Below the pieces are notes generated by a model. It searched no databases. It worked only from the letters and a program-made list of their open reading frames with translations, and had not been told where the DNA came from. This document shows positions 33,126 to 64,000 of a DNA stretch of 64,000 nucleotides, in pieces. A program made the position numbers and the translations under genes. The DNA is from Rhea pennata (taxonomy: Eukaryota > Chordata > Aves > Rheiformes > Rheidae). The DNA is taken from NCBI RefSeq assembly GCF_028389875.1, contig NC_084665.1:123150602-123214601 (forward strand), given 5' to 3'. The stretch's first letter is position 1, and each line of letters opens with the position of its first letter.

Positions 33126-33273
33126 TTATCTTCTAGCCATCATGGAGATGAGGACAATGGTTAGGACAACGGTTCCAGCGATTCCACCAACTGTCAATCC
33201 CAGGATGTTTCCATGGACCTGCATTGACTGACATCTCTCACCAGTGAAGAAGAAGGCTTGTCCTGATGGGCAC
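33126..33273 (-). CDS. MEP1A: MEP1A exon 14: EGF end, membrane helix, stop
   Basis: Encodes [15 protein letters not shown], then [20 protein letters not shown] and MMARR, with stop TAA at 33126-33128. The cytoplasmic end is three or so residues shorter than in human. Confidence 0.94.
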
Positions 33274-36200: not shown

Positions 36201-39200
36201 TGATATTATGAAGTAGCTTATTCCTCAGCATCCATCCAAGCTGCATTTTCAGACAACTGTTTTTCTCACAGAATCCTGAAGGCTGGAGAACTTAAGTTGC
36301 TATTATGATTACAGTATACTCATATTACGAGACATTATCATCTAAATGCCTTGAGACACATTGTATTAGGAAGTATGCAGATATTAGTGAATGACAGTCT
36401 CTAATTCAAAGGGCAAGATGCTAAAGGCCAAGACATAACAAGCAGATGGGAGTAAGTATCCCGGGATGTTGGAATTAAGTGTCAGCAACAGTTTTTCATT
36501 ATCTTCTCCTTCCATGAAATTCCAGCAGCTCAATACGGACAGGTTATCACATGTCATGGGTTTTGACAGCATTAAATAGTCCCATAGTAGCTGGATTTGT
36601 CCTATGTAGCAAAATCATCCAAAGTTGGAACTCACATTTCCAAAATTACATACATTTTTTTATTTTGGGGCATACAAAAAGTCAGTATCGGCTTCTTATT
36701 GAGTAATGTGAGCATAGGTATTTACATGTCAGCACGTCAGTGTCAGATCATATAGCCAGTGGAAATCTAGAGTGATAATACTCCAGCAGAGTTTGGGGTC
36801 CCATTCATTGAGTGTAATATAATATTACCAGGAAAGCTGCGACTTCTACTGTGGACCACCTGAATTACACTATTACAAGCCACAGTTTCACTGACACATA
36901 CACTTCTGCAATACTAAAAACATTAGCTTCATTGCAAGATACTCTTCTGGTAGGTTAGGGAAAACTTTTTGAATTCTGAGCTGATTCACCATATTCCTGG
37001 ACTCAGTAAGTCAACTTTTCTTCCTCCATTATTTTATATATTCTTCAGAATTACCTTGAAATGTTTGGATTTTCCTCATCTTGCGAACATTTCCAGTGCC
37101 ATCATCTTCTTTAACCCAGATGACCAGCTTGTCAGAAAGGCTTCCTGTGATCCTATAGAAGAACTGGAGGCACTGCTGAGTTCTCTTTGGATAAAGGATT
37201 CGAGACTCTAGGACTGCCACCTCATCTGCCTTGCCAGAGCTGGTGTTGAAGTACATGAAATAGCCAGCATCTGGGAAGAAAGTGTAGAGTATCAATGTCT
37301 CTTCTTAGCTTTCCTGTTAGCTGCATAGTGTAAACCTATCATTTGAACCCCACTCTTTTAGTAGGCCTAAATGTAGTAATTGACATAAATATGGAAGAAA
37401 ACTGAATATGATAACCAGTCAAGATAGAACAAAATAAGAGTATGTCTAGTAGTTTATGTAACTTACTGAGTATGTCTATGTATGTAACTTACTGAGGGCT
37501 CATTATGTCAATTTTGTGTCGGTTTAGCTGGAAGTTAGATACCTCACAAATGTCAAAGATAGGAGACAGAGATGATATCAGTGATGAAGATAATATAAAA
37601 AGTTTGGGCACTAAACTAGCACTCTCCTGACCTTGAACATGCAGAAGCTCCTTCTTACAGCTTGTCTAAATACTTTTCAAAGCTTTACTCCTCAACTTGG
37701 GGATATTAGGTAAGAATTTTTGCCCCTCTAATTTAACTCCCCAGTATCATTCTCTGAAGTGATCTTTACTTTAGATTTGAAGTATCTATCTTTATCCTTA
37801 TATTTACCTGTGTTTTCATTTGACATGCACATATGCACCATTTGCACACATTTCTTATCTTGATATCACGTAACCTTGTCACATCTTACCTGCATTGCAT
37901 TGGCTCTATAGTTATTCATTATAGTCTATGATTATACTATTAAGTGAAATTCTTCTAGCTATTGAAATTCTCCAGAAGTATCTACATTCCTGATGAAGTT
38001 AATGAGCTTTTGAAGGCCTTCAAAAGGAGAGGCAGTCCCTAACCTGGCAATTCATTTAGGCACTTTGGAGATCTTCAAAGGCACATACCCCTTCCCATTA
38101 ACTCTTCAGGGAACATGGTTATTTATTTTATTCAAACTGAGTCACCAGATGCTAAAGCATAAGTGCAAGTTAAGTGCTTATTTTAGTCAGGCTCATATCC
38201 AATAATATCAAACGACTCAACTGAATTCTTTTCCAGTAACAATTATATAATGCAAAAGAAAAAAGAAGAAAGAAGGAAAAATACTAGAGGAAGGTTAGGA
38301 GCATGTTCTTGTAGAAGATGTCAGAAGGTTTTCTTGAGTTATTTTGCATTCTCACACCTGATCGATAACTACCAGCGTTATGAGAGGTTGAGGCTCTGTT
38401 CTTCTTTCCAGTGACTGATTCAACATAAGAGGAATAAACTCTTTTCCTGGTGACAAGTCAAATTCTTCCCTCATCAAAAAATAAAAAAGCACAACTGAAC
38501 GTGCTTTGGACTATGATTCTTGTATTTTGTACTTGGGCAAATTTTTCCACCAAAGTTTCTTGACATCTGTAGTAGTTCCACTGACTAAATAATGACAAAT
38601 CATACCCTTGCTTAATCTTCACTTTCACTTGTAAACTAGCAACCTGTAACTGTGACTGGAGATGACTCCACCCTTTTTGAAATTCTCTTCATTTGAAAAA
38701 TGTCAAATTAACACTTCAAAAGAACGTTATCATGAAACGTGACTTTCTTCTACCTCCAGAACATGTACTCCTCAAGTTTAACTTATTGTTTATTTTGCAA
38801 ATGCAACATTTATCAGTGGTTTATGAGTACTATTTCATTCTTACCGTGTAGCAACATAACTCTTAGTCAGACTTGGAAAGTTTCAGTAAATCTTCTTCCA
38901 GGCTATGCTTAAAAGGGCTCTAGTTAGGATGGTTCTTTGTTCCCTTTTATACTGCTGGTCTTGAGAACATTCCACTATGTTCAAAAAGCTTAAGAGATCA
39001 TAAACTCAGATTTACAGTGCCAAGACATGTGTGAAGGAAAGGGGCTTTTTGCTTAGCTAGAAACATTACAGATAAGATGTCACCTGCAAAGTCGCCTATT
39101 TAATCTTGTGTTTTCAGAGTAGCCAATGCTGGCATTTCTCAAGGGTTGACTACAATGATGACATCTTTAACAACTTTTCTAAACCTTCCTTTAAACCAAA

Positions 39201-42200
39201 CAGCTCAGCACATACATGCACAAGTGACCATTACACCAGCTAACTCCTTTTCTATGGGTAAGTGGTCTGTTACTTGGTTTTACCTTTACAACGCCCAGAA
39301 AGTGTGTGGTCTTCTTGCCCTGTAGCACTGCTCTGTTGATGGATCCAGTCTAGGTCATCTCTGGTGCCTTGAATCATTCCACAGATATTTTCAAATTCAA
39401 AAGCACACTGGTCCAGAAGAGTGTGAGTTGAAGCTGAAAAAAATGCATGTGTGGTAACCTCTAAAGAAGTATTCCATTTAAAACAAATTTGGATATTTCT
39501 ACTCTGGTTTGGGTCTTTGTTTACGTTGTTACAGGTATCACGTACAGAAGATCTAATTGCAACAGATACGAGTCCTAAGACGACAATTCAAGGGAAGGAA
39601 AGGTTAGTTTGCAGAGGGGTTCCCTACATAAAGATACTAAGATCCCACCGCACTGCAGAAGCTTAACAAACTTGCATGTGTCAGCTGAAACAGTGACTGC
39701 TGGTAGCTGTCTCTGTGCCTGCTTTTAAGTCTTGGGGACACAGTTGCTTTGTGAATAGTGATGTTGATTAAAGATGTTACCATCCCATTCTTGTATTTAA
39801 CTGCTGGAGATTATCAGTCTCCATGGCTCACATGGCTACCTGGATTCAGGAGCATGGTTTAACTCACTTCAGGCAAAGTCTGTCCAGTTAGCTTAGGTCA
39901 ATTCAGCTAAGTTTACTGCAAGTGGATGTTCCTGTTGGCAGAGCTGTGGGAATAATAATTCGTTGCTAAAAAGTACAGGTGGTGATAATATCTTTAACCA
40001 ACTGAGCAACCAACTGGAAAGAATGACAGACTCTAGACTTAGCCCATGCCAGGTGCAAAATCATGCATCTGGTCTAAATTTCAGTAAAAGAGAACAAGGC
40101 ACGGTTGCATTCACCTTACAGCAGAGGCACAGAGAAACTGCCCACAAAACAGCAGAACACAACTGCAGGTCTGAGCCCCTAGGAGCAACATAGAAGATGG
40201 GAATGAACTATCTTTCACTGACTCATTGTACTGTTGCAAAAGTAATGACAGTTAGGGACAAGGAAGAAATGAACAGTCTGAGTCTGCACCACAGGCCCTC
40301 TTCAGTGTTGGCTCAAGAACATCTGAGAATAATTATCTTGTTTTTAGAGACTTAAGGGAGATAAATCAGACAGGCTAAAGTGTAAATATAGGAAACAGTT
40401 TGCCATACTCAAGTTATGACTTACTGCAGTTATACATGCAATTGAGTCTTTCCAGGTCAATAGCACTGAAGTCTAGACGTTGTCCAATGATGTTATTAAA
40501 TGCTGGTATCTTTGTTGTGATTGTGGGGATGCTCTCATTTTTGTTAAACGAAAATGGTGCATAGTGCATCACTGATTCATAGTCATAGGGGGTGTTCAGG
40601 TCAGTGATGAAGCTGTCGTCATACTTCAGAAAGTTGTGTTCCATGTCTGCAGAAAGAACAGAAAAATGGTTCATTCTTAGAGTAAAAAGAAAATAAATTG
40701 ATTTAGTAAGGTCTATTGGATACAGTTCTCTCAGGTAGAATTGATATACCCCAAAGCAATTGCTTTCAGATAAAGGGTTCAAATTCAATGTGATTTGTTT
40801 ATGAGGTGACTTGGACAATAAAACATCTTTACATTGCAGTTTCCTGCCTTCACGTGAGTTCTGTATGTTCAAAATCAAATATAAGCCAGCCATAAAGATC
40901 TGTGATAAATTGGAGGTCAGATTAGATTGTCTAATGGTCCCTGGTAAGCATCCTGAAGGAATAAATTTAAAGATGAATATACTCCATTCCAGATTCTGTG
41001 ATCATTGATGCAAACATTTCCCAGGATATTAGACCTCACAGGAACAAGGAGAAGTCACTTCGCTCATCAGGGGGGCAAGATGACAGTTCTGAGGTGTCCC
41101 CAGCTTCTGCTGTCCTTCAGTGCAAAGAACATGATATGAATGTGTGAAAGCAATGAGGTTACCCTAGATTGATGGTATTGTTACCATTGCTACAGCTACA
41201 CTCATTTGCATGTTTTTGTTTTATTAATCAAAAATTTTTCTGAAAAGTCTTATGGAAACATGTTTCTTGCAGTTTCTTGGTGAATTAATTTCTTCTAAGA
41301 GAAAGCATTCTTTTCTCACTATGGAAGTGAAAGTATCCTCTGAGGCAGAGAGAGGGAGCATTTCACACACTTCAGTGTGGAAGTCAGGAGAGAATCCCAG
41401 CATTTCCACAGAAAATAGTTCCAGAATATTTGGGTTCATTCTCCAAGAAGAAACAGCACATGACTGACTGAGTGGATAATTACAGCTTCTCTGTGTACAA
41501 CTGCCCTTCCTTTCTGAAGCTCTATACTGAACACAAAGGTCTTCAGTCCAAGGGTCTAGATTATGTAAGAGCTTGGGGGTTATTTTCTTACAGATACTTG
41601 AACTGGACCTTTTATCAAAAAGAGTGAGAATCTTGCTAATCAAGGACTATCACTTTTTATAGCTGGGAATAAAATCTTGGCAGAACACAGCCTTGTGTAA
41701 TAATGCTGTTCTTTAAGATCGTTATCAAGTAAAGAGTAACTTTTAGATGTTCTTAAATAAACCCTTCAGTGAGAAGGCAGCTTCACTTTCTAGGCTTACT
41801 GTATGTTTTCTCTGAAGTCTAATAAGCTTACTAGCTTTTCTGTCAGCAGGAACACGAATAAGAGATCTTTTTTTCTAATCAGACACCTATTTGCACTGAA
41901 GTGTATGGAAATGTATTAGGGTCAAGACTGTTACAATGCTATTAAATTTGGATTTTCAGGTCATTAATGAGGAAACAGATGGAGAAACAGACACATACAC
42001 ACTAGTCTTACTTCCCTTTAGAGCAGCGGATAATATTTCAGGACAAGTTTAAAAAAAAAAAAAGGAAAAAGAAAATCCAAATCCAGGCTGAAGGGCCTTG
42101 CCTGAATGAAGGCTTGATAAGCTGATGGTGTTCATGGGGTTTGTGCCTTTCTCTGTAGCGTACAATAAATGCAGGCTATACTGACCCAAACACAGTGGAA

Positions 42201-45200
42201 TTTGTTTAAACAAGAGTGACTCATCTCATGCTAACATAGTCATCTATGCCTAGACACACAGCTCCTAGACATACACATAGAGATAGATGTCTGTGTTGAG
42301 ATGTATCAGTCTACAAGCTGAATCCTAAACCAAAAGCCACAAGAAATAAATTCTGATCATTGGCTAAATCCAATGCCAACTAGGTCATCAAATTAACCTT
42401 TCTGTTCCATCTCCAATCTTTTAGTTCCTTCGGATAGTTTTAGTTAAAGGTTTCTATCTATCTAATGCATTTTCCTCACTGAAAATAGGATTATGTAGTA
42501 TGGATACAAACCTCTGGAAGGTAGGAATCAACTCTAATGATATCAGACTAGCCCCAGGAATTAGTAGAGTCAAAATAATGTTACACTAAAGTGCGTCATC
42601 TGCTTCATTCTTCTGGTGTTTCATTTTTGTGGCTCCTCTCACCACAGATGAAGTGAGAGCATCCAACAAAGTATTTTTGAAAATAAAGAAAAAAATACTT
42701 GCATGGAGAAGTGGCACTGTTTTGTTGAGATTTCAGTAGCTCTGTATAACATGAAGCTCATAATAATTCATTATAAAACTCTTTGTTTAAGAGGTGGTTA
42801 GTTACAGTGCACAGCAGAATGGATCCAGCAACGTCTGAATCCCGAAAGTCAGGCTCTAGATGTTACTATCACCACCATCATCACCATCATCACCACGATT
42901 CAAGTTGAGAACAAGAAGATGAATTGGTTTTAGTGCTTTTCATAACAATAAAAATCATGGTCTGCAAAATCATCATCTGCATCCCATCCACTGCTCAGCC
43001 ACCCCAAAAGAGAATGCAGTTACAGGGCAGAGGCAAGTATGAATGCAGATGGCCATACAGCTTGGAACAATACAAAATAACAAATACTGCACTTAGAGGT
43101 CATTAGGTATAGCTTGTATAGCAATTTTTACCTATCCAAGTGAGAACATAGAGCTCTCTGGATCCTATTCGTTTCTGATGCCTATTTTGCATGTGTTTTA
43201 CACTTATCTGCAAAATTGGCAAGTGCATAACCCTGAAGACCAAAATGATCTGCTTGTCTATATGGAGTACAAGCAATAGCAGGACAATTTAGATGCACTA
43301 GCATCACAATGCATCACTGCTGGGAGCAAGAGAAGAGTTTACACTTGATGCCTTTGCTAGCATGCCTTTAAGAATTTGTTATTCTTAAGACTACCAGTTA
43401 CTCTTTTCAAATACATTATCATTAAATAGTAAGGGAGACAGACTCAAAGGAGACAGAAGGAGAAACTGTCTAGAGACCAAGAGGACTATAGAGAGTTTGC
43501 TGAAACTCATGAAGCTACCAAATCTGATGAAACTAAACATGAAACCAAGGACCTGCAGAGATACAGTGGGTAGTGGAGAATGGAACAGAGCCCTATTTTA
43601 TGTATCTCATCTGATCTAGTCTTTTGAAGCTTCTTTATGTACAAAGTAAATCTTTCCAGTTTCTGGAAGACCTGAGTCTCTGAGTATAAAACCCTTTCAG
43701 ACCTTGATAGGGCCTGACATTAAAGAAGAGGCCATGGTAGAACCTTAAAATTCAGGGCAAGTTGGAGTCCCACCACACCAACCCAGAAGATCGTATTTCA
43801 CATTACACTGCAAGAGAGGAAACAGTCTCTTAGAGAGGGAAAGTGTTTTGTTCAAAATCAGAGAATAGACCAGTCCTGCAATCAAGGGGCAAAAAACCTC
43901 TGACTTCCAAGGAGCACTGCTCTCCTCTGGGCTTAGATTGTTCCTTATCTTCCACCCTCTGGAAAGTGTATGGAAACCATGCTTCATCTACAGATTGATT
44001 TACAGGGTCTCGCATGTGGCCCTATGTCACTAAATTTACATTTTTAAGGCTTTAAAAACTAGGCAGGGAGATACCATCAGTCTGTACTTTATAAAATTTA
44101 GCTTGAAGTTCAAAACCAACCTGCAAGAATTTCATCCCACCAGATTGTCACATAATCATCCCGGTCCATCCTTGACTGCTCATGGTAAAATCCCAAAGCA
44201 TGCAGGATCTCATGTTCCACAATTGCTTTGTAGTCACACCCTGACCCAATAGAGAGGTTCTGTCCAGTCTGCTGGTCTCCCACCATCGACCAACATCTGA
44301 AAAAGAGATTTCATTGTCTATTAAGTATTCTTTTCTGTATTTAAGGTCCCAATCTGCTCACTGGATTTAAAGTAATATGAAAAAAGATTTAAATACAAAA
44401 CAAATGTATACATTATTATTTAATTGTTGACCATGTGCCTTGATGCTCTGCAGAATGAAGACAACCTGAGCCCTGAAGACCTGCTATCACATGCGTGAGG
44501 CCAGCCGTGTTACATACCCTCCAGGTTAGAAAAGGTCATCCCTGATTTTTGAGATCCGCAGTTTTGTCCTATATCAGCTGCTGTTTTGCCAAGAAACGGG
44601 ACAAGAAACATAGTACATAGATAGAAACAGCAAACTCATCAAGGGAGACCGAGCTTTCTTTCAGTCACTTAGAGTAGAGAAAAGATCACCAGTAGCTAGA
44701 AGGATGTAGCATTATTTGACTCTTTTTAAGAGCAACTATACAATACATTGGCCTGGGTTGCGAAAACATATCTACTTGTGTAAGGATTCAGCTCCTCTGC
44801 ACAGCTCAGCAGATGCCAAGCATGCTGAGGAGGAGAGGAGCCCCTTGGCAGTTCACTGGGGACTTCTTGATGTAGCCCAGGAGCAAGTTCAAAGAATATA
44901 TTCAGAGGTTGTTTCACGCACCAGTGAAATGGAAACATCCCCAGGTGAGAAAGAGGAAGCTGCTGGAGAGAACACAGGAATGGTTGGGATTCACCTCATT
45001 AAAGAGGAGCCATCTAAACCTTAAATGCTCGTTCCAGGTTCATCATCTCAATATCCTCTGTGGTCAGCAGAGGGGGGCAGCTGCTTTCAAATTATATGTC
45101 TAAGAAAATGAGACAAATTGTTCTCTTGATGGCCTTTTTCTTCACTGACTATAAATGAAGCTTAAACAACAAGGTTAGACTAAACCTTCAGACTATGGAA

Positions 45201-47112
45201 GTCAAATGAGATGAATTCCAAACTGATCCTACAGAGAGAAATTAAACAGAAACTGATATAACTCTTACCCATTTTCTTTTCTGAAAAATATGTAGTTTGT
45301 CTCTCCTTCATATGGCTTGAAATCAATGCAGGATTTCAGACGGAACATTTCGAATGCTTCCAGAATGACTCCTTTGGCATTCAGATCTGGAAAATATATT
45401 TCAGGAACACATGTTTTAACATATAGCAGATCACTCTCCCTGGAGAAGTGACAAATAGACAGAGATATATATGTGGGACCAAAAGAAACGTGATTGAGTT
45501 TGATTAAATTATGATTTTATGATAGGTGTAGAAGAAAAAATTAGTCTTAAAGGAGCAGTGTGGTTATTAGTGAATTTTAAAGTAAGAGAGCCCTTCCGAA
45601 AAAAAAAAAAAAGAAAATCTTACAGTGACTCCAGTGCAAACAGGGTTTGGACTTAAAATCTGAATAAAGTATCTGCATTACCTAGGTTATCACCCAAAAT
45701 ATAAGGAATGGGGAACTTCCATCTGTAGATCTCATTTCTTAGGGCATTTCGCTGATTTCGCTGAAAAAAGAATTAACAGCTGTTGATGATGATGCTGTTG
45801 TAGGAAGATGGGTTGATTTGCACTGAAAATACAATTAAGACAAATAATAGCTACAACATTTTACGTTACTTACTGGGAGCAAGATATCCCCCTGAAAGAG
45901 GTTCAGTCCAGCAGCTGAAAAGCAGTTTAATGAAAGATAATTGAAATGAAATATCAAATATATTTTAATTCATAAAGCATATGAATACCACCTATTTATG
46001 AAGTGTTCAAGTTTTATGTCCTCAGACATTTGCAGAGAATAAAGAAGGATTAGCCTCTATATTTACACTGGCCTCAAAGTGACAGCAGCTTCTACTCAAC
46101 ATTTACTACTCAGCAATGGCTGCATTGTGGGTGGCAGAAATCTGATGGCCTGTGTGATAACCTCTTACTTGTTACCAGCCAGTGGCAACAGTCACACGAT
46201 GAAACAGTATTCTAGAGAACATAGCAATTTGTAATAATGCTTCAGGAAGCAATGTTGTCTAGTATACCATCAAAGGATATGTGGAAATTTGCATTACAGA
46301 GCATAAAAAATTAGAGAAGTTATAGTGTGTTGTGTCTTTTCCTTTTGATTACCTTACTGCTTATATAGAAGCTCAACAAAACATTTATGCTATTGTCCAC
46401 TTTGTGAAACTCTATAAAAATCATCTATAAAGATGGAGGAAATGTTAGTAGTGGTACTCCAAAGCCTTTCCTATTGATACAGCATATTACAGCCTCAAGT
46501 GAAAGATATCTGTATCCTTCATTTATATAGAGTTACAACCTGACTCCTACTTTTGTCCAAGCCTTGAAGAACCTTGAAGTCTAGGATGATTTCAAGAGTC
46601 TGTGCAAAACTGCCTGAGGAAGATAATTTGGAGCCCACTTCACTTTATCTGTTTTTTTCTCTTGTTACCATGGTCTTCTCTTCCTGACCATCAGTCACCC
46701 ACCTCTTTTTTACAATGCTGAAGCTTCAGCTTTCTGCTTACAGCTTTCTTGAATGGACTACAGGAGAATTTAGACATGAACTCACCTAAGTTTATATCTG
46801 GAATGTCTTTGATTATCTCACCAGCGTCTTGTGCTGTAAGACAGATAAAACGTAACACATTCAGATGTGGTCATACACAGCAAGCAAAAGAAAATGCTTC
46901 AATACGTAGCTCAAAGAATCCTTACCAACTTCACTGGAGAGATGCCTGACCTGAAAGAGAATAAAACACAGTCAGCATAAGGTACAGTATGTCTCTGGAA
47001 TGAGAGGAAACTGTAGAAACCAGGTCTGGTACTCTGTACTTACAGAGATTGGAGTACCATGAGCATAACATAATAGGAGAGCTAGGCAGGGCAGGAAGCT
47101 GGTGGAGCCCAT
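33126..47112 (-). CDS. MEP1A: MEP1A, meprin A subunit alpha (secreted/membrane astacin metalloprotease), 14 exons, intact
   Basis: Zinc endopeptidase of the astacin family, found on kidney and gut brush borders; it cleaves matrix, peptide and cytokine substrates. Exons (5' to 3'): 47044-47112, 46926-46950, 46786-46833, 45874-45914, 45682-45760, 45269-45386, 44121-44296, 40425-40646, 39284-39433, 37055-37270, 35698-36156, 34441-34614, 33626-33833, 33126-33273. Total 2,133 nt, 710 codons plus stop, all GT/AG and in phase. Residues: signal peptide 1-20, propeptide to Arg65, mature start Asn66, zinc motif His155-Glu156-His159-His165 ([12 protein letters not shown]), Met-turn Met212 and Tyr214 (SVMHY), MAM about 265-430, MATH about 431-590, furin site RQKR 619-622, EGF about 641-680, membrane helix about 685-707. 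The furin site predicts secretion, as in mammalian meprin alpha. Human is 746 residues; the inserted segment and cytoplasmic end are shorter here. Confidence 0.96.
33626..33833 (-). CDS. MEP1A: MEP1A exon 13: inserted segment with furin site, EGF start
   Basis: Contains [10 protein letters not shown], a furin site where mammalian meprin alpha has RQKR, and the EGF start [19 protein letters not shown]. Acceptor TTAAAAG is purine-rich and weak; donor GCAG|GTACC. Confidence 0.92.
34441..34614 (-). CDS. MEP1A: MEP1A exon 12: end of MATH domain
   Basis: Encodes [20 protein letters not shown] then [18 protein letters not shown]. Acceptor TTTGCAG, donor CATG|GTAAAG. Confidence 0.95.
35698..36156 (-). 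CDS. MEP1A: MEP1A exon 11: end of MAM and MATH/TRAF domain
   Basis: A 459-nt exon. Encodes [16 protein letters not shown] (end of MAM) and the MATH segment [12 protein letters not shown] ... [20 protein letters not shown]. Donor TCAG|GTAAGT. Confidence 0.96.
37055..37270 (-). CDS. MEP1A: MEP1A exon 10: MAM domain
   Basis: Encodes [20 protein letters not shown], then [20 protein letters not shown]. Acceptor TTCCCAG, donor CAAG|GTAATT. Confidence 0.96.
37440..37497. repeat. Imperfect two-copy tandem repeat, about 30 bases
   Basis: GAGTATGTCTAGTAGTTTATGTAACTTACT is reported in shortened form: both copies start GAGTATGTCTA and end TATGTAACTTACT, the second slightly shorter. It lies in the MEP1A intron between exons 9 and 10. 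Confidence 0.75.
39284..39433 (-). CDS. MEP1A: MEP1A exon 9: start of MAM domain
   Basis: Encodes [20 protein letters not shown] ... DDLDWIHQ, the typical MAM opening. Acceptor TTTTCAG, donor AAAG|GTAAAA. Confidence 0.95.
40425..40646 (-). CDS. MEP1A: MEP1A exon 8: Met-turn, end of protease domain
   Basis: Encodes [19 protein letters not shown] and [17 protein letters not shown]. The Met-turn (SVMHY) is intact. Donor TGCA|GTAAGT. Confidence 0.96.
40647..44120 (-). other. MEP1A: MEP1A intron 7, no other gene recognised
   Basis: A 3.5-kb intron. Apart from the CAC/CAT repeat at 42868-42900 I see no element or exon in it. Confidence 0.6.
42868..42900. repeat. CAC/CAT trinucleotide repeat
   Basis: A run of ATC and ACC triplets in MEP1A intron 7. 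Not part of an exon. Confidence 0.85.
44121..44296 (-). CDS. MEP1A: MEP1A exon 7: zinc-binding motif
   Basis: Contains [20 protein letters not shown] followed by [10 protein letters not shown], the complete astacin signature with three His ligands and the catalytic Glu. Donor GCAG|GTTGG. Confidence 0.97.
45269..45386 (-). CDS. MEP1A: MEP1A exon 6: protease domain
   Basis: Encodes [20 protein letters not shown], then [15 protein letters not shown]. Acceptor CCAG, donor AATGG|GTAAGA. Confidence 0.94.
45682..45760 (-). CDS. MEP1A: MEP1A exon 5: activation site and start of protease domain
   Basis: Encodes [20 protein letters not shown] and ILGDNL. The activating cleavage expected after Arg65 gives mature Asn66 (NALRN). 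Donor CTAG|GTAATG. Confidence 0.93.
45874..45914 (-). CDS. MEP1A: MEP1A exon 4: propeptide
   Basis: Encodes [13 protein letters not shown]; human has [13 protein letters not shown]. Acceptor TTTTCAG, donor CCA|GTAAGT. Confidence 0.93.
46786..46833 (-). CDS. MEP1A: MEP1A exon 3: propeptide
   Basis: Encodes [15 protein letters not shown], similar to human DADFGEQKDISEINL. Acceptor CTTACAG, donor TTAG|GTGAG. Confidence 0.88.
46926..46950 (-). CDS. MEP1A: MEP1A exon 2: propeptide
   Basis: A 25-nt exon (VRHLSSEV) with acceptor TTTCAG and donor GTTG|GTAAG. Tiny but phase-compatible, and matched by an exon at the same place in the second copy. Confidence 0.8.
47044..47112 (-). CDS. MEP1A: MEP1A exon 1: start codon and signal peptide
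   Basis: ATG at 47110-47112, then [19 protein letters not shown], a good signal peptide; donor TCT|GTAAGT. Intron 1 is only about 93 bases. Confidence 0.9.
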
Positions 47113-47158
47113 TTTTGCAATGGAGAAAAAACAAACTGATCTCTTTCAACTGTTGCAA

Positions 47159-47164
47159 TTTATA
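47159..47164 (-). promoter_or_regulatory. MEP1A: MEP1A TATA box
   Basis: Reads CCTATAAATTG in the gene direction, centred about 50 bases upstream of the start codon, so transcription would start just before the ATG with a very short 5' UTR. A CCAAT box (GGCCAATG, plus-strand 47192-47199) lies about 30 bases further upstream. Confidence 0.6.
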
Positions 47165-47201
47165 GGGCTTGCCGCTGAGATTTTCACGGAACATTGGCCA
47201 A

Positions 47202-47225
47202 CCACCTTTGAGCTTTCCACCTTTG
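47202..47225 (-). promoter_or_regulatory. MEP1A: Two CAAAGGTGG direct repeats in the MEP1A promoter
   Basis: CAAAGGTGG occurs at 47202-47210 and 47217-47225 on the minus strand, 15 bases apart, just upstream of the CCAAT and TATA boxes. A nuclear-receptor or TCF-type site is possible; the factor is not determined from sequence. Confidence 0.45.
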
Positions 47226-51902: not shown

Positions 51903-51949
51903 CTACGTACATGAATTCCATCGGGGATTTTGATAATACAATACTATAT

Positions 51950-52123
51950 CTTCAAAATTTGCAAAGATTAAAAGATCATTGTTTTTAAGGAATTTTTTCC
52001 AACGCAGCTCCCTGTGTGTCAGGAATGTATTCCAGCCCACACCTGGGCCCATATAACAGTTGCAGAAAGAAGAAAAACTTCCAGTGATTGATGATTTGTC
52101 CCACTGCAGAGTGTCATTTCTGC
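51950..52123 (-). pseudogene. MEP1A-like exon 12: MATH end, donor lost
   Basis: Same 174-nt length as MEP1A exon 12. Encodes FCNCYMGPGVGWNTFLTH and LKNNDLLIFANFE. The donor is AT instead of GT; reading on gives about 16 more codons to TAG at 51903-51905. Confidence 0.9.
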
Positions 52124-52283
52124 CTATTGTGCAAAAATATACAAGTAATTAAAGCTGATCACTAATCAGCCTAATAGTGTTACATGCAGACAAATCCAGC
52201 CCAATCTTCTGGCTTTCAGTATTTTTCTCTAGCTGAGAAAACTTTTGCATTCCTATATTTCTCCCTGATGCACTCTGACTTAC

Positions 52284-52766
52284 CAAATACTAGTTGCATT
52301 GGATCTGTAGTAAAGCTAAGGCTGAGGGACATCGTGTGGATTACATCAGGGTCTTGATCCAAAACAGACAAGATAACTTGTCTGTGTCCAGCTGGCCATT
52401 CAAGAAGGCCATCATTCTGACTGCTGCAGAGATGGAAGGTAATCCCCATGTAATTCGTGTAAGGTGAAGTGTGTCTTCCATGAGGATACAGCTGTAAAGC
52501 AAAGGCATAGCCTTCCGAGCTGTAAAATACAGGGCTTACGATACAATCGCCTTTTGAAGTACTGTTAAAAAGCGTTGTGAAGTTTCTGATGTGCCAGATA
52601 TTGGTAGGGCAGTGTGTCTCTGTCAGGCTGGTGTCGTCGATGGCAATCCCCCCCCCCTCCCCCTGCAGACTTGGCTGGATCTCCTTTGCTGCCCTGAAAC
52701 CCATAGAAGAATTTGGTTTGAACACAAAAGGAATGCTGACCAATTTCCAGTGATGTTCTTCATCAG
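52284..52766 (-). pseudogene. MEP1A-like exon 11: MAM end and MATH, with compensated frameshift
   Basis: 483 nt, eight codons longer than in MEP1A. Between about 52747 and 52648 the frame is shifted: the +1 frame there reads TKFFYGFQGSKGDPAKSAGG, as expected for the family. The frame returns at a G5-A-G10 tract (52648-52663). After it, GIAIDDTSLTETHCP and the MATH segment are normal. Donor TTTG|GTAAGT. Confidence 0.92.
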
Positions 52767-53091
52767 CTGAAGGGAGAAATATATCCATTTAACAATGAAA
52801 AGTCCAGAGCACAACCCTAAGTCATGCTAGGTCTTCCTCAAGCTTCCTGTGATCTATTTGCCTAAATCTGATGCCCTGCACCCAAACTAATTTAAGAATG
52901 GTCTTAAAGAAACCACCGCTGGGTCAAATTCTGCTTTTATGGGCCCTAACTCTGGAATTACTCAACTAAAGTAAATGAAGGTTAGATTTACAGGGGAACT
53001 TAAGCAAATTATCATATGAGAAACCATCCCAGGCCTGACTAACATCAAAGTTCATCAGCACTTCAGCTACAAAAAAAGCATACTCACCTAC

Positions 53092-53307
53092 CTGTGATAG
53101 TGTGCAGCTTTTCCATCCTCCAAAAGTTTTCAGCGCCGTCACCTTTCTTAACCCAGATAACTAGCTTATCTTGTGCACTTCCATTTAACCTGTAGAAGAA
53201 CTGAAGGCATTTTTCTTTCCTCCTTGGATAAAGAATGTGAGATTCCAAAAGAGCTGACTGACCAGTATGTCCAGTTTTTGTATCTAAGTGCATGAAATAG
53301 CCTCTCT
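53092..53307 (-). pseudogene. MEP1A-like exon 10: MAM
   Basis: Open, same 216-nt length as MEP1A exon 10. Encodes RGYFMHLDTKTGHTGQSALL, then HILYPRRKEKCLQFFYRLNG. The acceptor TTTCTTAG sits directly before GAGAGAG. Confidence 0.9.
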
Positions 53308-54595
53308 CTAAGAAACACATAACACAGTGATGCGATACGAGTTTTTGCTCCATTCAGTGATGAAACTCCAGTGCTAAATAAGCTTTAGTACAGTTTCTAC
53401 TTGCCTGGTTAGTAAATTATTTTCAAAGTAGAAAAATGTTTCAATAGAAAAGAATTCTCTTAACATTGCAGATCAGTAGTAAAATGAGAATGCACTGAAA
53501 TGTGGCTTGCAAAGCAGTGTTCAGTTGACTAAATGGGGTACACATTCAGTTCTGTTCATTAGAAATGAAGTGCAAAATGAGCGTGAGCCAGTGCTATAAA
53601 CATATACAAATATAAGTGAATGCACCTGCCTAGGGATTTTTTTGAAGACAAACTGGGAATTCGTTGGAAGGGTCCTGATAGGCCCTGGCATTCAAATTTT
53701 AAATCAGTCTCTTGAAGGGGGCTGAGCAGTAATAGTGTCAATATTTTCTATATCTACAGGAAATATCTGTCCTGGTAGCATGGAGATTTTCAAGCTGCAT
53801 CACACTGGGGATCTGCAAATACCCTGTGGTTGTGTCTATGGGTTTGCAGATTTCTGACCATTCGGGAGCTGAGTGATGCCAACTGCAGAAACCCTGTAGA
53901 CAACGATGGATCTGAAACCGCCACCTGATCCTAGTCTGAGCTTCACTACCACCTCCAGCTGCTTGTCTGCACTTGGGTGTGTTTCCATAGGCAGTGCTGG
54001 CATTCTGCATTAAGTTCCCCTTCCCCATACCCGTGCAAGCTGCCTATTTTCCACCAACCGCTGACCCATTTGCTCTCGGGGAGCATCTGAAGGCTGGCTG
54101 TTTAGTGTTTACGTCGTCGTCTTCTCCCACAGTGAAGACAGGCAGTTAATTGTCTGTGACTAGGCACGCAGGGCAGGAAGCGGCTGTCAGCTCCTCAGCC
54201 ACATGCTCTATCACACATCGCAGTCTTTACAGTGTCAGCAAACCACACATCCTGCAGACTGCATGCAAACAGCCCACTGAACAACAGCCAAACAGGCTCA
54301 TTCCTCCACAAACAAGAAATTGCTCCTTCCTCGCCAGCACTGAGACCTGAACAACCCCCCGACTCTTGCTGCATCCCGCTTGCTGACTCTCCCGAGTGCC
54401 GGCTGCTGCCTTTCACCCTTCCCCAGATCTGCCTTCTCGCCCAGGCACATCCGAACCTTCTTTTCCATTCTATATTTTTTCCCCTCTCCTGCACCATGGA
54501 GGACTTCTGTGCCTCCCTTGTGGCTTTGGACACTGATGTGCCTGCCTGGGACCACTTGTACGCAGCACCGCCAGGCTCGTGTGCATCTGACTTTC

Positions 54596-54615
54596 AAAAA
54601 AAAAAAAAAAAAAAA
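54596..54615. repeat. A20 homopolymer
   Basis: Twenty A, then TC and nine more A, in the pseudogene intron between exons 9 and 10. Confidence 0.85.
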
Positions 54616-55603
54616 TCAAAAAAAAATCTTTTTCTGCTGGAGGACTTTTGGAGTGTCTGTACAATATTCCTCTGGGGTGCTCAGCTTTTTCTCCCACTGC
54701 CCTTAAAAACAAACCCTAAAAACAAATCCTGTATCCCAATAGCAATCAAAGTACATACATATTTGTTTGAATTCAATATATGCTTGAATTGGTGCTGAGC
54801 CAAAGCCTTCATCTAAAGGACCCCTGCAATACTCTCCTCAGAAAAGGAGAAATCACAGCTGCTTTATTTCTCAGGTGATTCTTCAGCCTCCTCACGTGGT
54901 GTAGCTCCAACAAACTTTAAATTAGCAGCTGCTACACTTTTCAGACATGGCTTCTTATTGCTCAGCACCTAACTCCCAAAGAAGTCTCCTGAGGGTGGTT
55001 GCTTCCTGCTCTGTCACATTGCTGAAACTCGGCTTGCTATTCTGTTGATTCTGAAGCAGCTGCTGGGTCAGAATTTGTTTATAAACAAAGTCTGTGTTTT
55101 CTAATGTTTATCTAACTATATACTTCTGTGGGGACACCTGAAGTGAACTCCTGTGCCAAGGGAAGTGTCTTTGAGCTTTTTTCTTTAACTAAAAAAGCTA
55201 GAAAACAACCATCATTCCACAAATATGCAGAAAAGGAGGACTGATCCTCACCTGACTCTATTCCATGGGGTTCCACTGAAGTTAGCCACTGCAAAGTGGT
55301 GGAGCACCCTTGATTTTAATGGAACTACAACCAACGTGCAGCAGCTATGTCTCAAATTCTCCTTTCCTCATAAGATGTTACAATATAGGAAAGAGGTTTA
55401 AGGAAGAGTTAAACATTAAAAAATGAAAATGATTATCCTTTCTACCTGAACAGTTCAGAGTCATATTTACCTTCAGATATACAGTGATTAGGCTTAATAT
55501 TAGGCCTTTTCTAATGTCTGTTATTTATCTCTGTGTATTTTCATTTTCACATGTCTTAAAACCATGGTGCAGTCTAATAACCATCCAAAAATAGAGCTGC
55601 TAC

Positions 55604-55750
55604 CTGCACAGTCTCCCACCAAGGTATGATGTTCATATCCTGGTTTGCTCAATGTGTGCTCCCAGTCAGCATCATCTTGTCCACTGTGCACCATCCCACA
55701 AATACTGGTGTGTTCTAGGGAGCACTGACCCAAGAAAGTGAGGCTTGAAG
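55604..55750 (-). pseudogene. MEP1A-like exon 9: MAM start
   Basis: Open, one codon shorter than MEP1A exon 9. Encodes LGQCSLEHTSICGMVHSGQD then DADWEHT. Confidence 0.9.
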
Positions 55751-56568
55751 CTGCCAGGAATAGGGTATGGTATTTTACCATGTCCATCAATGTCAAATAA
55801 GGCTTTTACTATCATTCCCTGATGGCTTAAGTACAGCATTTAACTTCAGAAAATGTGTTCTTAATGCAGCCAAAGATTACACAGGCTTCTGCATCTCCAT
55901 CTCTGTTAACACACATAAACTGTGCTTCCTCCTGAAGGCAACATCCCTCTCTTTCTTCCACTCTCCATTGATACTTCCTTGCTGGGACCAGGCTTGGCCC
56001 CTGAGTACTAGTTTTTGCTTTCAGATATCTGTCATTTTCTCTAAGCCTGTCTGTGTTACTGTTAGACCAATGATTGGTTTTGCTGGGTTTATATTAACAC
56101 AGTATGTCAGTACCACAGAGTAGTCTCCACTCCACATTTGCTTTCATAACTTTGCCCAAGAAAAGTACAATTATCCACATCCATATTTCTGACCCCCGTT
56201 GTCTTATCTAACATCACACAGACAGTAAAAGAAACTTGAAATACTCTGACTTCAGAGATCCCAATTCCAGGCTACTGATATCTGAATATTTTATCTTCGT
56301 TAGCAGCATCCCTGAATGAAACACGTATTATTACAAGTAAGCTCACAGTGAAGTCCATGTGAATGAAAGATATTAGACCCTTGATTCACTACAAAGCTGT
56401 TCTATAAACAAATGGGGATCCAGCCACCATGGAGCGTGCTGCTGCATAAGAACTATAATTTCTTTTAGCATCCCAAATACTTACTCCTGTGCCTGTCAGG
56501 TGATCCAATCCATGCTATTGTGAAGCACAAATAAGGATTTTCAAACACGTGTATGGGAATGAACTTAC

Positions 56569-56790
56569 TGCAGTTGTACATGTGATTCAACATCAGTAAG
56601 TCAGTCCTGCTGAAATCCAACCTCTGCCCAATAATCTCATTGAATTCAGGATTTTTTGTTGTAATGGATGGGATGTTGCTATTGACGTTGAAAGAATATG
56701 GTCCGTAGTGCAAGACTGACTCATAGTCATATGGGGTATTGAGGTCATCAAGGAAACCATCGCTGTGTTTGTCAAAGGCATATGCAAAAC
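56569..56790 (-). pseudogene. MEP1A-like exon 8: Met-turn lost
   Basis: Same 222-nt length as MEP1A exon 8 and fully open. Encodes [17 protein letters not shown]; the Met-turn Met is Leu (TTG at 56711-56713). Donor TGCA|GTAAGT is intact. Confidence 0.92.
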
Positions 56791-57045
56791 CTAGTCAAAG
56801 ACATACAAATACGGTTAGGCAAAACTGGAAATAAAAATGAGCACAAAGCTTTTCAAAATGCTTTATCCATGACTAAATATTGCTGTAGTTGTCAACATGT
56901 AGGCAGTCATTTTTAATTGGAAGCATTTTGGCTGAGAAACTAATGCATCCTGTAATAGCAGTTAGTGAAAACAATTGGCAGTGCCACTGGTAAAAGGAAC
57001 ATGCAGCTAAAGATAATTCTCAATCATTTCAAACCTGCCGATTAC

Positions 57046-57221
57046 CTTCAGTAATTTCTTCCCACCATATCTGAACGTAGTGATCACGATCTGTCCTGGA
57101 TTGCTCATGGTAAAATCCCTAGGCATGCAGGAGCTCATGTTCCACTATGGCTTTATAGTCACACCCCTCTCCTATAGGCACTGTCTGGCCACTCTGAAGG
57201 TCACCCGCATAAGACCAGCAC
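57046..57221 (-). pseudogene. MEP1A-like exon 7: zinc motif with nonsense codon
   Basis: Same 176-nt length as MEP1A exon 7. Encodes IVEHELLHA, stop, then [19 protein letters not shown] at 57119-57121 replaces the Leu codon of the HExxHxxGxxH motif. Splice sites are good (TTACAG; GAAG|GTAATC). Confidence 0.95.
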
Positions 57222-58621
57222 CTGTAAGGCAGACTCAGACACTGCATCCATCCACTCAATTGCAAGATCAAGGTGTAAGTAACAGAATAATATTTTATAG
57301 AATCAACTGCCTGAAATTTCCTGTCTTCTTATTCTTGTCCAAACTAATTTGTAATGCCAGAGTATGAAAGAACATGTGTCTTTGTTGCTTTGTCACAGCC
57401 CAGCGATGAGGGCCTGTCCCAGAGGTGCAGCTGGCCTCCTTGTTTCGTTTTGCTTTCCCTGGAGGGCAGAACCGTCCGTGCCGTGCAGCAGAGCATGTGC
57501 ACTGAACTGTCTGCACGTCTCTGAAGGGAGATGGTGATGGCAAATCTAGTATCTGCTCTCCCACTCTGGGTAGCCCCAGCTCAAACAATATAGGGAGGGA
57601 AGGAGCAAAGATGAGCAGCACAGAAGTATATGGTAGGTACCTTATAGCCTCATACACTGAGCTGGCTGGTTATGTGTATACCAAAGTACCTAAATAAGTG
57701 GTCCAGTTTTCAAAGGTGCTGAACATCTTCCAGTGAACTTGGGTTGCATTGCCCTTCCTGGTTGAGCTCCCAAACACAGATTTAAATCCTAACTTTCCGT
57801 GTCCATTCAGAAATAATTCATCACAGTGCGTTAAAAAAAAATCCCCAAAATGCTATGCACCTTTTCCCTGTACCCCAGGGGATCTACTCTGGCTCCTAGA
57901 CAGACACATGAGCTGGTATCACCAGCTTCCTCATGGTCCAGCCCAGCAAACAGAAGTTCCCCATGCCTAACTCTGGATGGTCACAGTGTTGGCACGTGCC
58001 ATTGAGCCAGCTCCCTAGGTGCCCATTAGAATCATTGGACAGAAAAGAGTAATTGGGGTGTGAGCCACCAGATCTGTTTTACACTTCAGTTTTAGGTCAG
58101 ATGGTTTATGCCCTGGAAGAGTCATCCCCTCTTCCGAACGCAAAGGCAGCCTGCAGTAACTTGCTTAATGGTAGAGGTTGCTGGTTTAAACATTTGGTTG
58201 GGTAAACCCAATTGTGTCTGGAAGCAAGGAGGAAGTTGTCATGCCAACACCCTCATGACATAGCCTATCACTAACTGACCCCAGGAGAATGTTATTCACT
58301 TGTTTTCCCTGAAGGTGTGCCAAGAAAGGGACTCTCTTCAGTAGCTGGTATGCAAATAGAAATAAAATATTGTTCTCTTACATTAAGAAAACATCAAGTG
58401 CAGATAATACTTTTGTCTGGTTAGTCTGCCTGCACAGATTTTTACCTCCAGTGTGATGCAAACAGGCTTTGGGTGAGAAATGTGGCTCAGATGTTTATGA
58501 CCTCTGTACTAGCAAGAACGAAAATGAAAGTCTATGCAGTTGGGAAGATTATCAAAGCAAACTGCTCACAAAGCACATACAGAACACAGTGGCCCAAACC
58601 AGCCTGTTAATACAAAATTAG

Positions 58622-58739
58622 CCATCCAGCTTCTCAAATTTCAGGTAAGTTTTTTCCCCTTCATAGGGCTTGAAATCAACACAAGACTTCAGCCTGAACG
58701 TGTCAAAAGCCTGCAGGATAACACCTTTAGCGTTCAGAT
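58622..58739 (-). pseudogene. MEP1A-like exon 6: protease domain, donor lost
   Basis: Same 118-nt length as MEP1A exon 6. Encodes [19 protein letters not shown], then [15 protein letters not shown]. The donor is CT (GATGG|CTAATT), and a stop TAA follows at once. Confidence 0.9.
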
Positions 58740-59608
58740 CTGAAAGATACAGAAGCGGTAACAATAACAATTGTTCTTCTTTTATGGTGTTACACTAAAT
58801 AGCCATAATTCCAGGTAGAAAATGTGAACATGTGTTAAAAATACCAATATGTATTAAAAATAGCTACTTCGATGAAAGAATAGGAGGCTGTTAGCAGAAT
58901 TCCCTGACTAGGACAATCTTGGCAGAGGCTGTAGGGAGAGAGAGTATCTTTTATTAGATGAGCTGATACAGCTGGAAAAAACAGGCAGACTTTTAAACAG
59001 CCAGAGTATTTCTCAGGTTTTAGTGGGTACTTTATTGCATGCCATTATGTAGTTTCAGCTGTCAAGTATTGTAAATTTTTGCCATTTCTAGCTTGGGGTT
59101 AGTAAACACAGAAAAGATCCATGGGATTATAACACTGATTTACTATTCATTTTAACCGCTAAATTGTTCAGACTCCTAAAAAGTCCCTAAAATTAGATGA
59201 AAACAAAAAGAAAGAATCCTCTCAACCTTCCAATTAGGAAATAGCTACTATTTGCTGCGGACAGTGCTGAGCTGGAGCTGTTAAGAAGAGATGAGGCACG
59301 AAGGGTGCAGTAGACCAACAAGCATGTTCCTAAATTCAGGATTTTCTGACTTCATTATCAAGAGATCCCAACCAGATGCACAAACAGAAATCAAGGCGTC
59401 CGCTCATCAGCATCAAGGCTGATCACTGGGGCAGTTATGCCGACAGCAACGTGTGCCGTAGCAGAGTCACATTGCTCTGTCTGACCTGCAGTGCCAACAG
59501 CGTAACGCAGCGTAACTGGACGGCAAACGAGGCTAAAGCACTCCAGAGAGCTGTACAAAACCAGGGTATTTCTAATGCAAGTAACACTGCAGTAAAAAGC
59601 CTTATTAC

Positions 59609-59683
59609 CCAAGCTGTCAGTAGGATATAGGGGATGGGAAATTTCCATTTGTAGGAGCTGTTTCTCAGAGCATTTCTCTCCAG
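59609..59683 (-). pseudogene. MEP1A-like exon 5: activation site, with one-base deletion
   Basis: Encodes [20 protein letters not shown], then shifts frame: one base appears missing near 59626, so it ends in phase 0 instead of phase 1. The activation sequence RNALRN is still readable. Confidence 0.85.
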
Positions 59684-59769
59684 CTGTTAAGGAAATCAAC
59701 ATATTTGTGTTAACATACTAGGCTCAATCTAGACACTTGCTGAAGCTGATTTAGATCAGTAACACATAC

Positions 59770-59810
59770 CGGTAAGATAATATCACCTTCAATAAGCTGC
59801 CTTTCTGTTT
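59770..59810 (-). pseudogene. MEP1A-like exon 4: propeptide
   Basis: Encodes TERQLIEGDIILP, same 41-nt length as MEP1A exon 4, with good splice sites. Confidence 0.85.
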
Positions 59811-61314
59811 CTGAAATGAGATAAACAATCATTTAAGCCACAGGGATGTATCAAGGACTACAGAATGTTTTTGCAAAGTTTACACAACCTATCTGGCTGC
59901 CCGTCTCTCTTCAAGCAGTAGCGGCCCAGAAACACGCACGCAAATAACCATCGTCACACCACAACACGCCAGTGCTCTGTTTGCAGCAACATCAGCTGCA
60001 GGAGAATTTGGGGCTGGATTAAAATTTCCAAGTCAATTCATGGCACCTGCCCAAGGAAGATTTGTTCCTATTTCCAGCACTTGTATCCTAAAACCACTGT
60101 GGACTTTTAAACGTTGTTAATATTTAGGTGGGGTGGGATATAGAGGAAGGTAGGCAGCTAATAGCCTAATTAGCTAGCTAATCTAGGCTGGTCATCTAGG
60201 ATCCCCATATAGTCGAGGGAGAAAGACAAGCACTCTGGAGAGAAAAGGGATTTTGTCCACCTTGCATAAACACCTGAGCCTGAACTAAGTTCAGATTCAG
60301 GCGGTTGAACCTAAATGTCTACGCTGCAGTGCCTATGCATGTATGGCTCAGATCCCACTACAGCCCTGCAAGCATCCAGCTGCCTACATGTAGGTGTCTG
60401 GTGCCATTTGAGATGCACCAGGGTATTCAAAATATCCACACAGGCTGGAAGATGCGATGCCTGCGAGGGTCCTCCTCTTCTGGAGCAACACCAGAGGAGA
60501 TAGATTTGAACCAGCAACAGATACCTGGATTTTAGCCAACCGATCCACATCTTCCACTGAAACACTGTGGTAAGCAGTTAGCACAGCATTTGAGCAGAGC
60601 ATAAAGCAGATAAAAGGCAACCCCAGGAAATGAAATCTCTCTCGCAGCAACACCAGTGAAACCATGGGGCAGGGCTGACAGCACTTAAACTTTGTATCTT
60701 GGTCACCGGTCATGTGAAACCAAGTAACTCACTTAAGAGGAATACAAATGAATGAAGCAGAAGTGAAATTAGAGCCAGAGATAATGTGTCTCTGGGAGTT
60801 GTTTCACAGAGGAGCACAGGGGTGAGGGATGTGGCCTTGGGCCAGCCCAGGGGGTGCTACGCTGCTCCTCCGAAATGCAAGGTCTGCTGGGCTTCACAGA
60901 CCACTGCTTTCCCAGAAGCAGCTGAGTGTCTTTCCAGATTTAAGATTAAGATCTTGGGCTTCCTGCAGAATTGTCCTTGTGGAAATTTCCCGGCTTTTCT
61001 AATTTCCCTTTTTACCACCAACCTTTGATGGACCTTTCTTTCCTCTGCCCCTTGTCCTAGTCCTGCCTTTCCATCATCTCTGACTGGCTCTGAAGTGGAG
61101 GTCTCTCTTCTCCCCTGACATAGCTGAGGTTCATCACAAATATTTTAAATTATCCTGCAGTACTCATCCATGACACATTTGGAATTTTTCTTACATATGA
61201 GGGAACTTTCAGCCTCCTCTGGTGCCACCACAGCTGCCGGATTTGTAGTCTCCAAAGGCTAGCTCAGATCTCTGTAGTAACTCAACACTCTGCTTACTTA
61301 CTATCCTGACTTAC

Positions 61315-61368
61315 CTGAGTTTATTTCTGGGATGTCCTTTCTATGCTGCCCTCCATCGACATCATAAA
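61315..61368 (-). pseudogene. MEP1A-like exon 3: propeptide
   Basis: Encodes YDVDGGQHRKDIPEINS; splice sites TTGCTAG and TCAG|GTAAGT are good. Confidence 0.8.
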
Positions 61369-61497
61369 CTAGCAAATGAAATAATACACAATAATACAAT
61401 TTAGTCAGTGACTAAAATGATAATGAGTTGATATAACTCCCACCTTGATGACTTACTGCCTTCCACAGCAATAAAAACAAAACCACTGCATCCTTAC

Positions 61498-61523
61498 CTC
61501 TTTCTTCAAGCAGAGTTTTGGGT
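61498..61523 (-). pseudogene. MEP1A-like exon 2: propeptide
   Basis: A 26-nt block (PKTLLEER) with acceptor TTTCAG and donor AGAG|GTAAGG. One base longer than MEP1A exon 2. Confidence 0.65.
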
Positions 61524-61620
61524 CTGAAACATAGAAAGTACATCTTCAAAATCACAGGCAAATGCAGTGAAATCTCATCCTGATCCCAAGCCAGAAAATA
61601 AAGGAAAAAGATGGGAATAC

Positions 61621-61680
61621 CATAAAGGCATAGGAGCAGGTGACTAGGGCTGTGAAACAACATATCCTCCGAGAATCCAT
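61621..61680 (-). pseudogene. MEP1A-like exon 1 remnant: signal peptide
   Basis: ATG at 61678-61680, then MDSRRICCFTALVTCSYAFM, signal-like. A GTATTC donor after 61621 ends in phase 0, but the next exon needs phase 2. At the position homologous to the MEP1A donor the sequence is TTTCC. A second frame from ATG 61661-61663 reads straight into exon 2. Confidence 0.55.
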
Positions 61681-63829: not shown

Positions 63830-64000
63830 ATGGAAGCTTGCCAACCTCCAGATAAATTCAATGGCAATTCCTATGATACCATAGTTCTGGCAGTCACCAC
63901 GGTTCTGATTTTTGCTGGAATGTTGATAAATGCTTTCATTGTGGCTGTGCATTGCATTGCTTGGATGAAAAAGAAAAGCTTAACCTCCAGTGAGAAGATC
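63830..64000 (+). CDS. Bitter taste receptor, TAS2R family, 3' truncated by the window edge
   Basis: ATG at 63830, open for 57 codons to the edge. It starts MEACQPPDKFNGNSYDT, then a first helix VLAVTTVLIFAGMLINAFIV and the intracellular stretch HCIAWMKKKSLTSSEKI. The helix-1 Asn (INAFI), the Trp and the basic residue pattern with L-x-S-x-(D/E)-K-I are typical of TAS2R receptors, which are single-exon genes of about 300 codons. Taste receptors of this family signal through gustducin in taste and gut chemosensory cells. The subfamily (for instance TAS2R40-like) cannot be decided from this part. Confidence 0.8.
   Translation, partial: MEACQPPDKFNGNSYDTIVLAVTTVLIFAGMLINAFIVAVHCIAWMKKKSLTSSEKI

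Follow-up and report, generated by a model that had tools for sequence, protein, structure and literature searches.

A window of 64,000 nucleotides (nt) of the Rhea pennata genome (1.27 Gb, 180 contigs), comprising bases 123150602-123214601 of the 130.2-Mb contig C3, was analyzed; all positions given below are those of the window unless another stretch is named. The window contains an intact MEP1A gene encoding meprin alpha (copy A, exons numbered E1-E14) and, upstream of it, a decayed, intron-containing copy of the same gene (copy B), both on the minus strand. Copy B is a duplicated, non-processed pseudogene of the meprin-alpha line, and the interpretation that it is an old gene, long under constraint and lost late, is well supported by the comparisons below.

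An intact MEP1A and a broken copy upstream

Copy A encodes a signal peptide, a propeptide, an astacin protease, MAM, MATH and EGF domains and a transmembrane segment. Its best match in the PDB was human meprin alpha (7uab, E = 1.9e-285), followed by human meprin beta (4gwm, E = 7.9e-172). Near the boundary between propeptide and protease, exon 5 of this gene (45682-45760) contains a codon that human alpha and copy B lack, and a 73-nt inverted repeat (88% complementary, arms at 46371-46443 and 48184-48256 with 1740 nt between them) encloses exons 1-3.

To delimit copy B, each MEP1A exon was aligned to the upstream region with a frameshift-aware aligner, and the scores were compared with those of shuffles of the same DNA (15 shuffles for short regions and 5 for regions longer than 1000 nt). 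The resulting features were as follows, with the highest shuffle score given as the null maximum.

33126..47112, minus strand: intact MEP1A, copy A; 14 exons, 2133 nt, 710 amino acids; exon chain in one open frame, all internal boundaries AG/GT
61498..61680, minus strand: candidate copy B exons 1 (61621-61680) and 2 (61498-61523), unsupported; scores within the shuffles; flanking GT/AG present; candidate exon 2 of 26 nt versus 25
61315..61368, minus strand: copy B exon 3 (propeptide); score 42 versus null maximum 20; 54 nt versus 48 in A
59770..59810, minus strand: copy B exon 4 (propeptide); score 35 versus null maximum 23; 41 nt as in A; AG/GT
59609..59683, minus strand: copy B exon 5, frame broken; score 94 versus null maximum 24; 75 nt versus 79 in A
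58622..58739, minus strand: copy B exon 6 (protease), donor CT (ctaatt); 29/40 identical to A; 118 nt as in A
57046..57221, minus strand: copy B exon 7 (protease, zinc-binding motif), in-frame TAG at 57121; 42/56 identical to A
56569..56790, minus strand: copy B exon 8 (end of protease, Met-turn region), open; 48/70 identical; Pfam Astacin 3.3e-19; 222 nt as in A
55604..55750, minus strand: copy B exon 9 (MAM start), open; 23/47 identical; 147 versus 150 nt; Pfam MAM 0.036, below the curated cut-off
53092..53307, minus strand: copy B exon 10 (MAM), open; 38/70 identical; Pfam MAM 2.4e-15; 216 nt as in A
52284..52766, minus strand: copy B exon 11 (MAM end, MATH start), -1/+1 shifts; 83/151 identical; Pfam MATH_2 8.2e-19
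51950..52123, minus strand: copy B exon 12 (MATH), donor AT (atatag); 28/57 identical; 174 nt as in A; Pfam MATH_2 0.00015, below the curated cut-off

Ten of the 14 MEP1A exons (E3-E12, 51950-61368) scored above all of their own shuffles, with scores of 35-399 against shuffle maxima of 20-38. An initial annotation of this DNA had described twelve blocks copying exons 1-12 with conserved order, phase and mostly exact length. The order is conserved from E3 to E12, while the blocks for exon 1 (28 versus a null maximum of 32, 5 shuffles) and exon 2 (14 versus 18, 15 shuffles) did not rise above chance. Lengths equal those of MEP1A in six of the ten exons (E4, E6, E7, E8, E10, and E12) and differ in the others (E3, +6 nt; E5, -4; E9, -3; E11, +24). 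All ten acceptors are AG and eight of the ten donors GT, that is, 18 of 20 splice dinucleotides are kept, and nine introns lie between E3 and E12 at the MEP1A positions. Because these introns are retained, an origin as a processed copy was rejected, and the earlier description of the locus as a tandem duplicate of MEP1A decaying in place is borne out in the main.

Copy B carries the domains of the meprin family in one gene (Pfam Astacin in E8, MAM in E10, MATH_2 in E11). The C-terminal region of the family, which is transmembrane and usually includes EGF, was not recovered above shuffles: E13 and E14 scored 27 and 28 in 49000-51900 (null maxima of 39 and 34, 5 shuffles), and a wider search of 47150-51949 gave 30 versus 31 for the N-terminal half of E13 and 28 versus 36 for E14. 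The C-terminal half of E13 reached 32 versus 31 there (8 shuffles), in a gapped match that was not counted. No AATAAA or ATTAAA occurs on the minus strand in 50900-51949. As copy B is broken, E13 and E14 may have been lost.

Whole-genome searches, within their candidate limits, returned no meprin-type match beyond copy A, copy B and MEP1B, and the existence of another meprin copy outside these loci was rejected within the same limits. One of these searches gave four matches: the two copies, a locus on contig C2 called MEP1B-like because it matches human beta, and a weak match on C20; an Astacin search gave 18, examined singly only on C2 and C3. A pattern scan of bacterial and archaeal contigs (123 matches) found no relative and is uninformative on vertebrates.

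Lesions, their age and past constraint

Six lesions were counted in E3-E12 of copy B: one stop codon, two lost donors and three frameshifts. E5 is shorter than its counterpart in A by one codon, which is also absent from human alpha, and by one additional base, which breaks the frame. The donors of E6 and E12 have become CT and AT. The TAG in E7 lies within the zinc motif, and the whole-genome Astacin search likewise counted a single TAG here; apart from this stop, the HEXXHXXGXXH motif still has its Glu and all three His. In E11 the frame shifts by -1 near 52725 and is restored by a +1 shift near 52653, some 24 codons further on. A possible extra lesion in candidate E2 was left out of the count. 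The initial annotation had held that several independent lesions exclude an active protease, and the damage in E5, E6, E7, E11, and E12 does so.

If the gene were intact and the lesions were sequencing errors, the +1 shift in E11 would be a case in point, as it sits in a G run, where long reads are known to be error-prone, and may itself be an error of the assembly. However, the lesions include two lost splice donors and a stop codon, and the adjacent copy A, an internal control for the quality of the assembly on the same contig, is free of such lesions across 2133 nt and 26 splice sites. We therefore consider an assembly artefact highly improbable as an account of copy B.

The lesions were converted to time using a clock based on 1706 nt (E3-E12), 20 splice dinucleotides and assumed indel-to-substitution ratios of 0.05, 0.10 and 0.15. 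Under these ratios six lesions correspond to K = 0.035, 0.025 and 0.019 neutral substitutions per site, respectively (95% limits 0.007-0.076 over the three ratios), or, with an assumed avian rate (1.9e-9 per site per year), to 18, 13 and 10 million years (My), with a range of about 4-40 My. Without the two E11 shifts, the estimates fall to K of 0.013-0.023 and 7-12 My (range 2-31 My). Neutral evolution to K = 0.2 would have left 34-62 lesions and to K = 0.4 69-124, versus the six seen. The damage is thus young and the divergence old, in line with the earlier argument that divergence from MEP1A far exceeds the amount of damage.

Differences between the copies also bear the mark of selection on protein. 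Over 531 codon pairs (pairs with the stop or shifts left out), 583 A-B differences were distributed as 163, 118 and 302 at codon positions 1, 2 and 3, a third-position share of 0.52 versus 0.33 under neutrality. In 100 simulations of neutral evolution down to the 60% identity observed, about 9-12 stops were expected (minimum 3-5), versus one seen. Each of the nine testable cysteines that the other four proteins (bird A, bird beta, human alpha and human beta) have in common is kept in copy B, and in relative-rate comparisons against beta copy B showed no significant excess over human alpha (60 versus 48 and 58 versus 50). A copy that had been a pseudogene since shortly after duplication, with only residual conservation, would fit the several independent breaks, but the lesions expected at K = 0.4, the single stop and the third-position share all contradict it. 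Neutral decay since duplication was rejected on these three counts, and the chance that it is correct is negligible. The scarcity of lesions relative to the neutral expectation indicates instead that copy B stayed constrained and was lost late.

Part of the gene might still be in use, as a protease-dead, secreted MAM-MATH protein made from E8-E12. These exons are open apart from the two self-cancelling shifts in E11, the splice sites are intact from the E7 donor through the E12 acceptor, and read-through beyond E12 adds about 15 codons before a stop. Against this, about 24 codons of E11 lie outside the ancestral frame, the signal-peptide exon was not found above chance, and more of the sites invariant in the other four meprins are broken in E8-E12 (29/141) than in E3-E7 (8/75). 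MAM-MATH evolves faster than the protease in all meprin pairs compared, so the excess in E8-E12 means no more than that these exons give no indication of extra constraint. The six lesions are distributed across both halves of the gene. A retained MAM-MATH protein was rejected, and we give it very little credence. The Met of the Met-turn, invariant in the other four meprins, is Leu in exon 8 of copy B, a change that may date from before or after the loss.

Age of the duplication and placement among meprins

The protein comparison took in five sequences: bird A, human alpha, the human and bird betas, and a copy B protein assembled from the exons, in which lesions were written as X. Copy B is 59% identical to bird A (322/546), 54% to human alpha (296/549) and 44-46% to the betas (241/541 for human and 253/547 for bird), which groups it with MEP1A rather than MEP1B. 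It is not the better candidate for orthologue of human MEP1A, as copy A is 70% identical to human alpha (389/556) versus 54% for copy B. With MEP1A, both the neighbouring gene and human 7uab, copy B shares the Astacin-MAM-MATH order, the intron phases and most of the E3-E12 lengths; it differs in being broken, in the EGF and membrane exons that were not found and in the Met-turn residue, and it may branch before the bird-human split. It differs from MEP1B in its low identity and in that it adjoins MEP1A rather than lying at the MEP1B-like locus on C2.

Fourfold-degenerate sites are close to saturation, with differences at 62/98 sites for A-B, 58/92 for A-MEP1B and 53/74 for B-MEP1B; a separate count for A-B gave 62/97. 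The LWL85 method gave 0.28 nonsynonymous (dN) and 1.64 synonymous (dS) substitutions per site for A-B, a ratio near 0.17, and NG86 returned no dS because of saturation. Since the synonymous sites are near saturation they provide only a lower bound and cannot date the duplication, although a duplication within modern birds would not show such synonymous divergence. Saturated synonymous sites, the 52% share of third-position differences, the nine cysteines and the six lesions agree with the initial suggestion of an old, long-functional paralogue lost relatively late.

Among ungapped sites at which both betas agree, 16 group copy B with beta against a different residue shared by bird A and human alpha, versus 3 that group A with B and 4 that group human alpha with B. 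The best tree placed copy B outside the pair of bird A and human alpha, and under the best-fit model (536 columns) the two alternatives had P values of 0.036 and 0.014 in the approximately unbiased (AU) test. This tree had the highest log-likelihood in 12 of 12 models. When 200 data sets were simulated with A and B as sisters, the deep tree came out ahead in 30 of them, the largest likelihood gap was 3.3, and none reached the observed gap of 10.8. Dropping the shifted stretch of E11 left the result unchanged under LG+G4, and LG+C20+G4 again did not separate the trees. The five-taxon tree itself is unrooted; we rooted it on the long beta branch, an assumption made because copy B adjoins MEP1A and is closest to it. 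With this rooting, a duplication before the bird-mammal split appears probable from the sequences compared.

We propose that the MEP1A locus was duplicated in tandem long before modern birds, and probably before birds and mammals separated. For most of its history copy B would have been a working, or at least constrained, meprin-like gene, presumably with protease function, and would have kept its zinc ligands, cysteines, intron phases and splice sites. Function would then have been lost recently in this lineage, at an estimated 10-18 My ago (range about 4-40 My), followed by neutral decay beside the intact MEP1A. The homology of E3-E12, the lesions and their scarcity, the synonymous saturation and the constraint at the protein level are shown by these comparisons, from which the date in years, the origin before the bird-mammal split and a past protease function are inferred, and an old meprin-alpha paralogue that was long constrained and recently lost is, in our judgment, very likely the overall explanation for them.

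Several results weigh against this history or its depth. In relative-rate tests copy B evolved faster than bird A (59 versus 37 and 59 versus 38; chi-square 5.0 and 4.5). It also breaks 37 of the 216 sites invariant in the other four proteins, whereas each of the others breaks far fewer (6/185, 14/193, 13/192 and 6/185); the unshared branch of copy B is also longer, and the count is an upper bound on relaxed or neutral change. Part of its history may therefore have been relaxed. The dates in years depend on the avian rate adopted and on the assumed indel ratio. In the trees, A+B sisterhood fell below 0.05 in only 6 of the 12 models (LG, WAG, VT, LG4M, EX_EHO and Poisson) and not in JTT, JTT+F+R3, Q.bird, Q.mammal, LG4X or LG+C10+F. 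Under a thirteenth model, LG+C20+G4, the three trees lay within 0.02 units with A+B first by 0.01, at a fit 69 units worse than that of LG+G4. The protease part (218 columns) carried no signal; the whole of the signal came from MAM and MATH (318 columns).

These results leave some room for a duplicate that arose within the bird lineage, owes its apparent age to rapid evolution after that event, and later decayed. Such a copy would account for its higher rate relative to A, for the models in which A+B sisterhood was not rejected and for the absence of signal in the protease domain and under LG+C20+G4. A fast-evolving protein would not, however, inflate fourfold sites, at which A-B divergence resembles that of A and MEP1B, and the failure of all 200 simulations to give the observed likelihood gap points the same way. 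Moreover, direct repeats of at least 40 nt between the copies were limited to exons 6 and 7 with their edges, with no intron similarity at that sensitivity. On balance we regard a bird-lineage origin as unlikely.

Copy B is a genuine pseudogene of the duplicated type, the remnant of an old meprin-alpha paralogue at an early stage of decay. Beyond this, we lean, by a modest degree, towards a broader scenario in which amniotes once had a third meprin gene, an alpha paralogue older than the bird-mammal split, located between an ankyrin-repeat gene and MEP1A. This gene would have been lost on the way to humans, would have encoded a working protease in the bird line and would have been lost here within the last few tens of My, and living birds or reptiles may keep an active copy that has gone unrecognised.

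According to Marin 2015 (PMC4545420), most species have a single MEP1A and a single MEP1B, and duplicates occur in Xenopus laevis and many fishes; zebrafish has three MEP1A genes (Huxley-Jones 2007, PMC1867822). The additional MEP1A genes and meprin-F reported for fishes (PMC4545420, PMC1867822) resemble the present case in that one genome holds extra meprins. The portions of Marin 2015 (PMC4545420) available to us name no second sauropsid MEP1A. Open-access titles and the openings of abstracts likewise mention no second bird or reptile MEP1A, and intact copies may be annotated without a paper.

As a pseudogene copy B is ordinary; it becomes of interest if relatives keep the gene. A constrained third gene beside MEP1A, if confirmed, would change the reference set for meprin evolution. 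Mammalian meprins are expressed in gut and kidney, and species with and without the gene would then form a natural knock-out series that could reveal the role of a second alpha subunit, for example in these organs.

Genomic neighbourhood and repeats

Receptor genes lie on either side of the meprin pair.

15404-16966, plus strand: large open exon of an adhesion GPCR, with 7tm_2, GPS and GAIN domains
63830-64000, continuing to position 783 of the adjoining stretch (L004:783): TAS2R bitter-taste receptor, complete open frame, 317 amino acids from the first Met; Pfam TAS2R 1.5e-49 on the L004 part

The GPCR exon is perhaps of ADGRF type, a tentative name suggested by its position. The TAS2R frame begins at the right end of the window, upstream of copy B, and an ankyrin-repeat exon, which may belong to ANKRD66, lies about 12 kb past that end. 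MEP1A is surrounded by a conserved cluster with TDRD6, PLA2G7 and ANKRD66 according to Marin 2015 (PMC4545420). Given this cluster and the nearby ankyrin exon, copy B is probably part of the ancestral gene neighbourhood of MEP1A, flanked by MEP1A on one side and the ankyrin gene on the other.

Three places in the window (19274-20101, 30056-30682 and 6637-6729) share translated frames, mostly at 75-98% identity, and are probably interspersed repeats; more distant matches occur in inverted orientation at 20.8-21.9 kb. Upstream of the meprin cluster, the adjoining stretch also carries two reverse-transcriptase fragments (RVT_1), at L004:7614-8507 on the plus strand and L004:8927-9583 on the minus strand.

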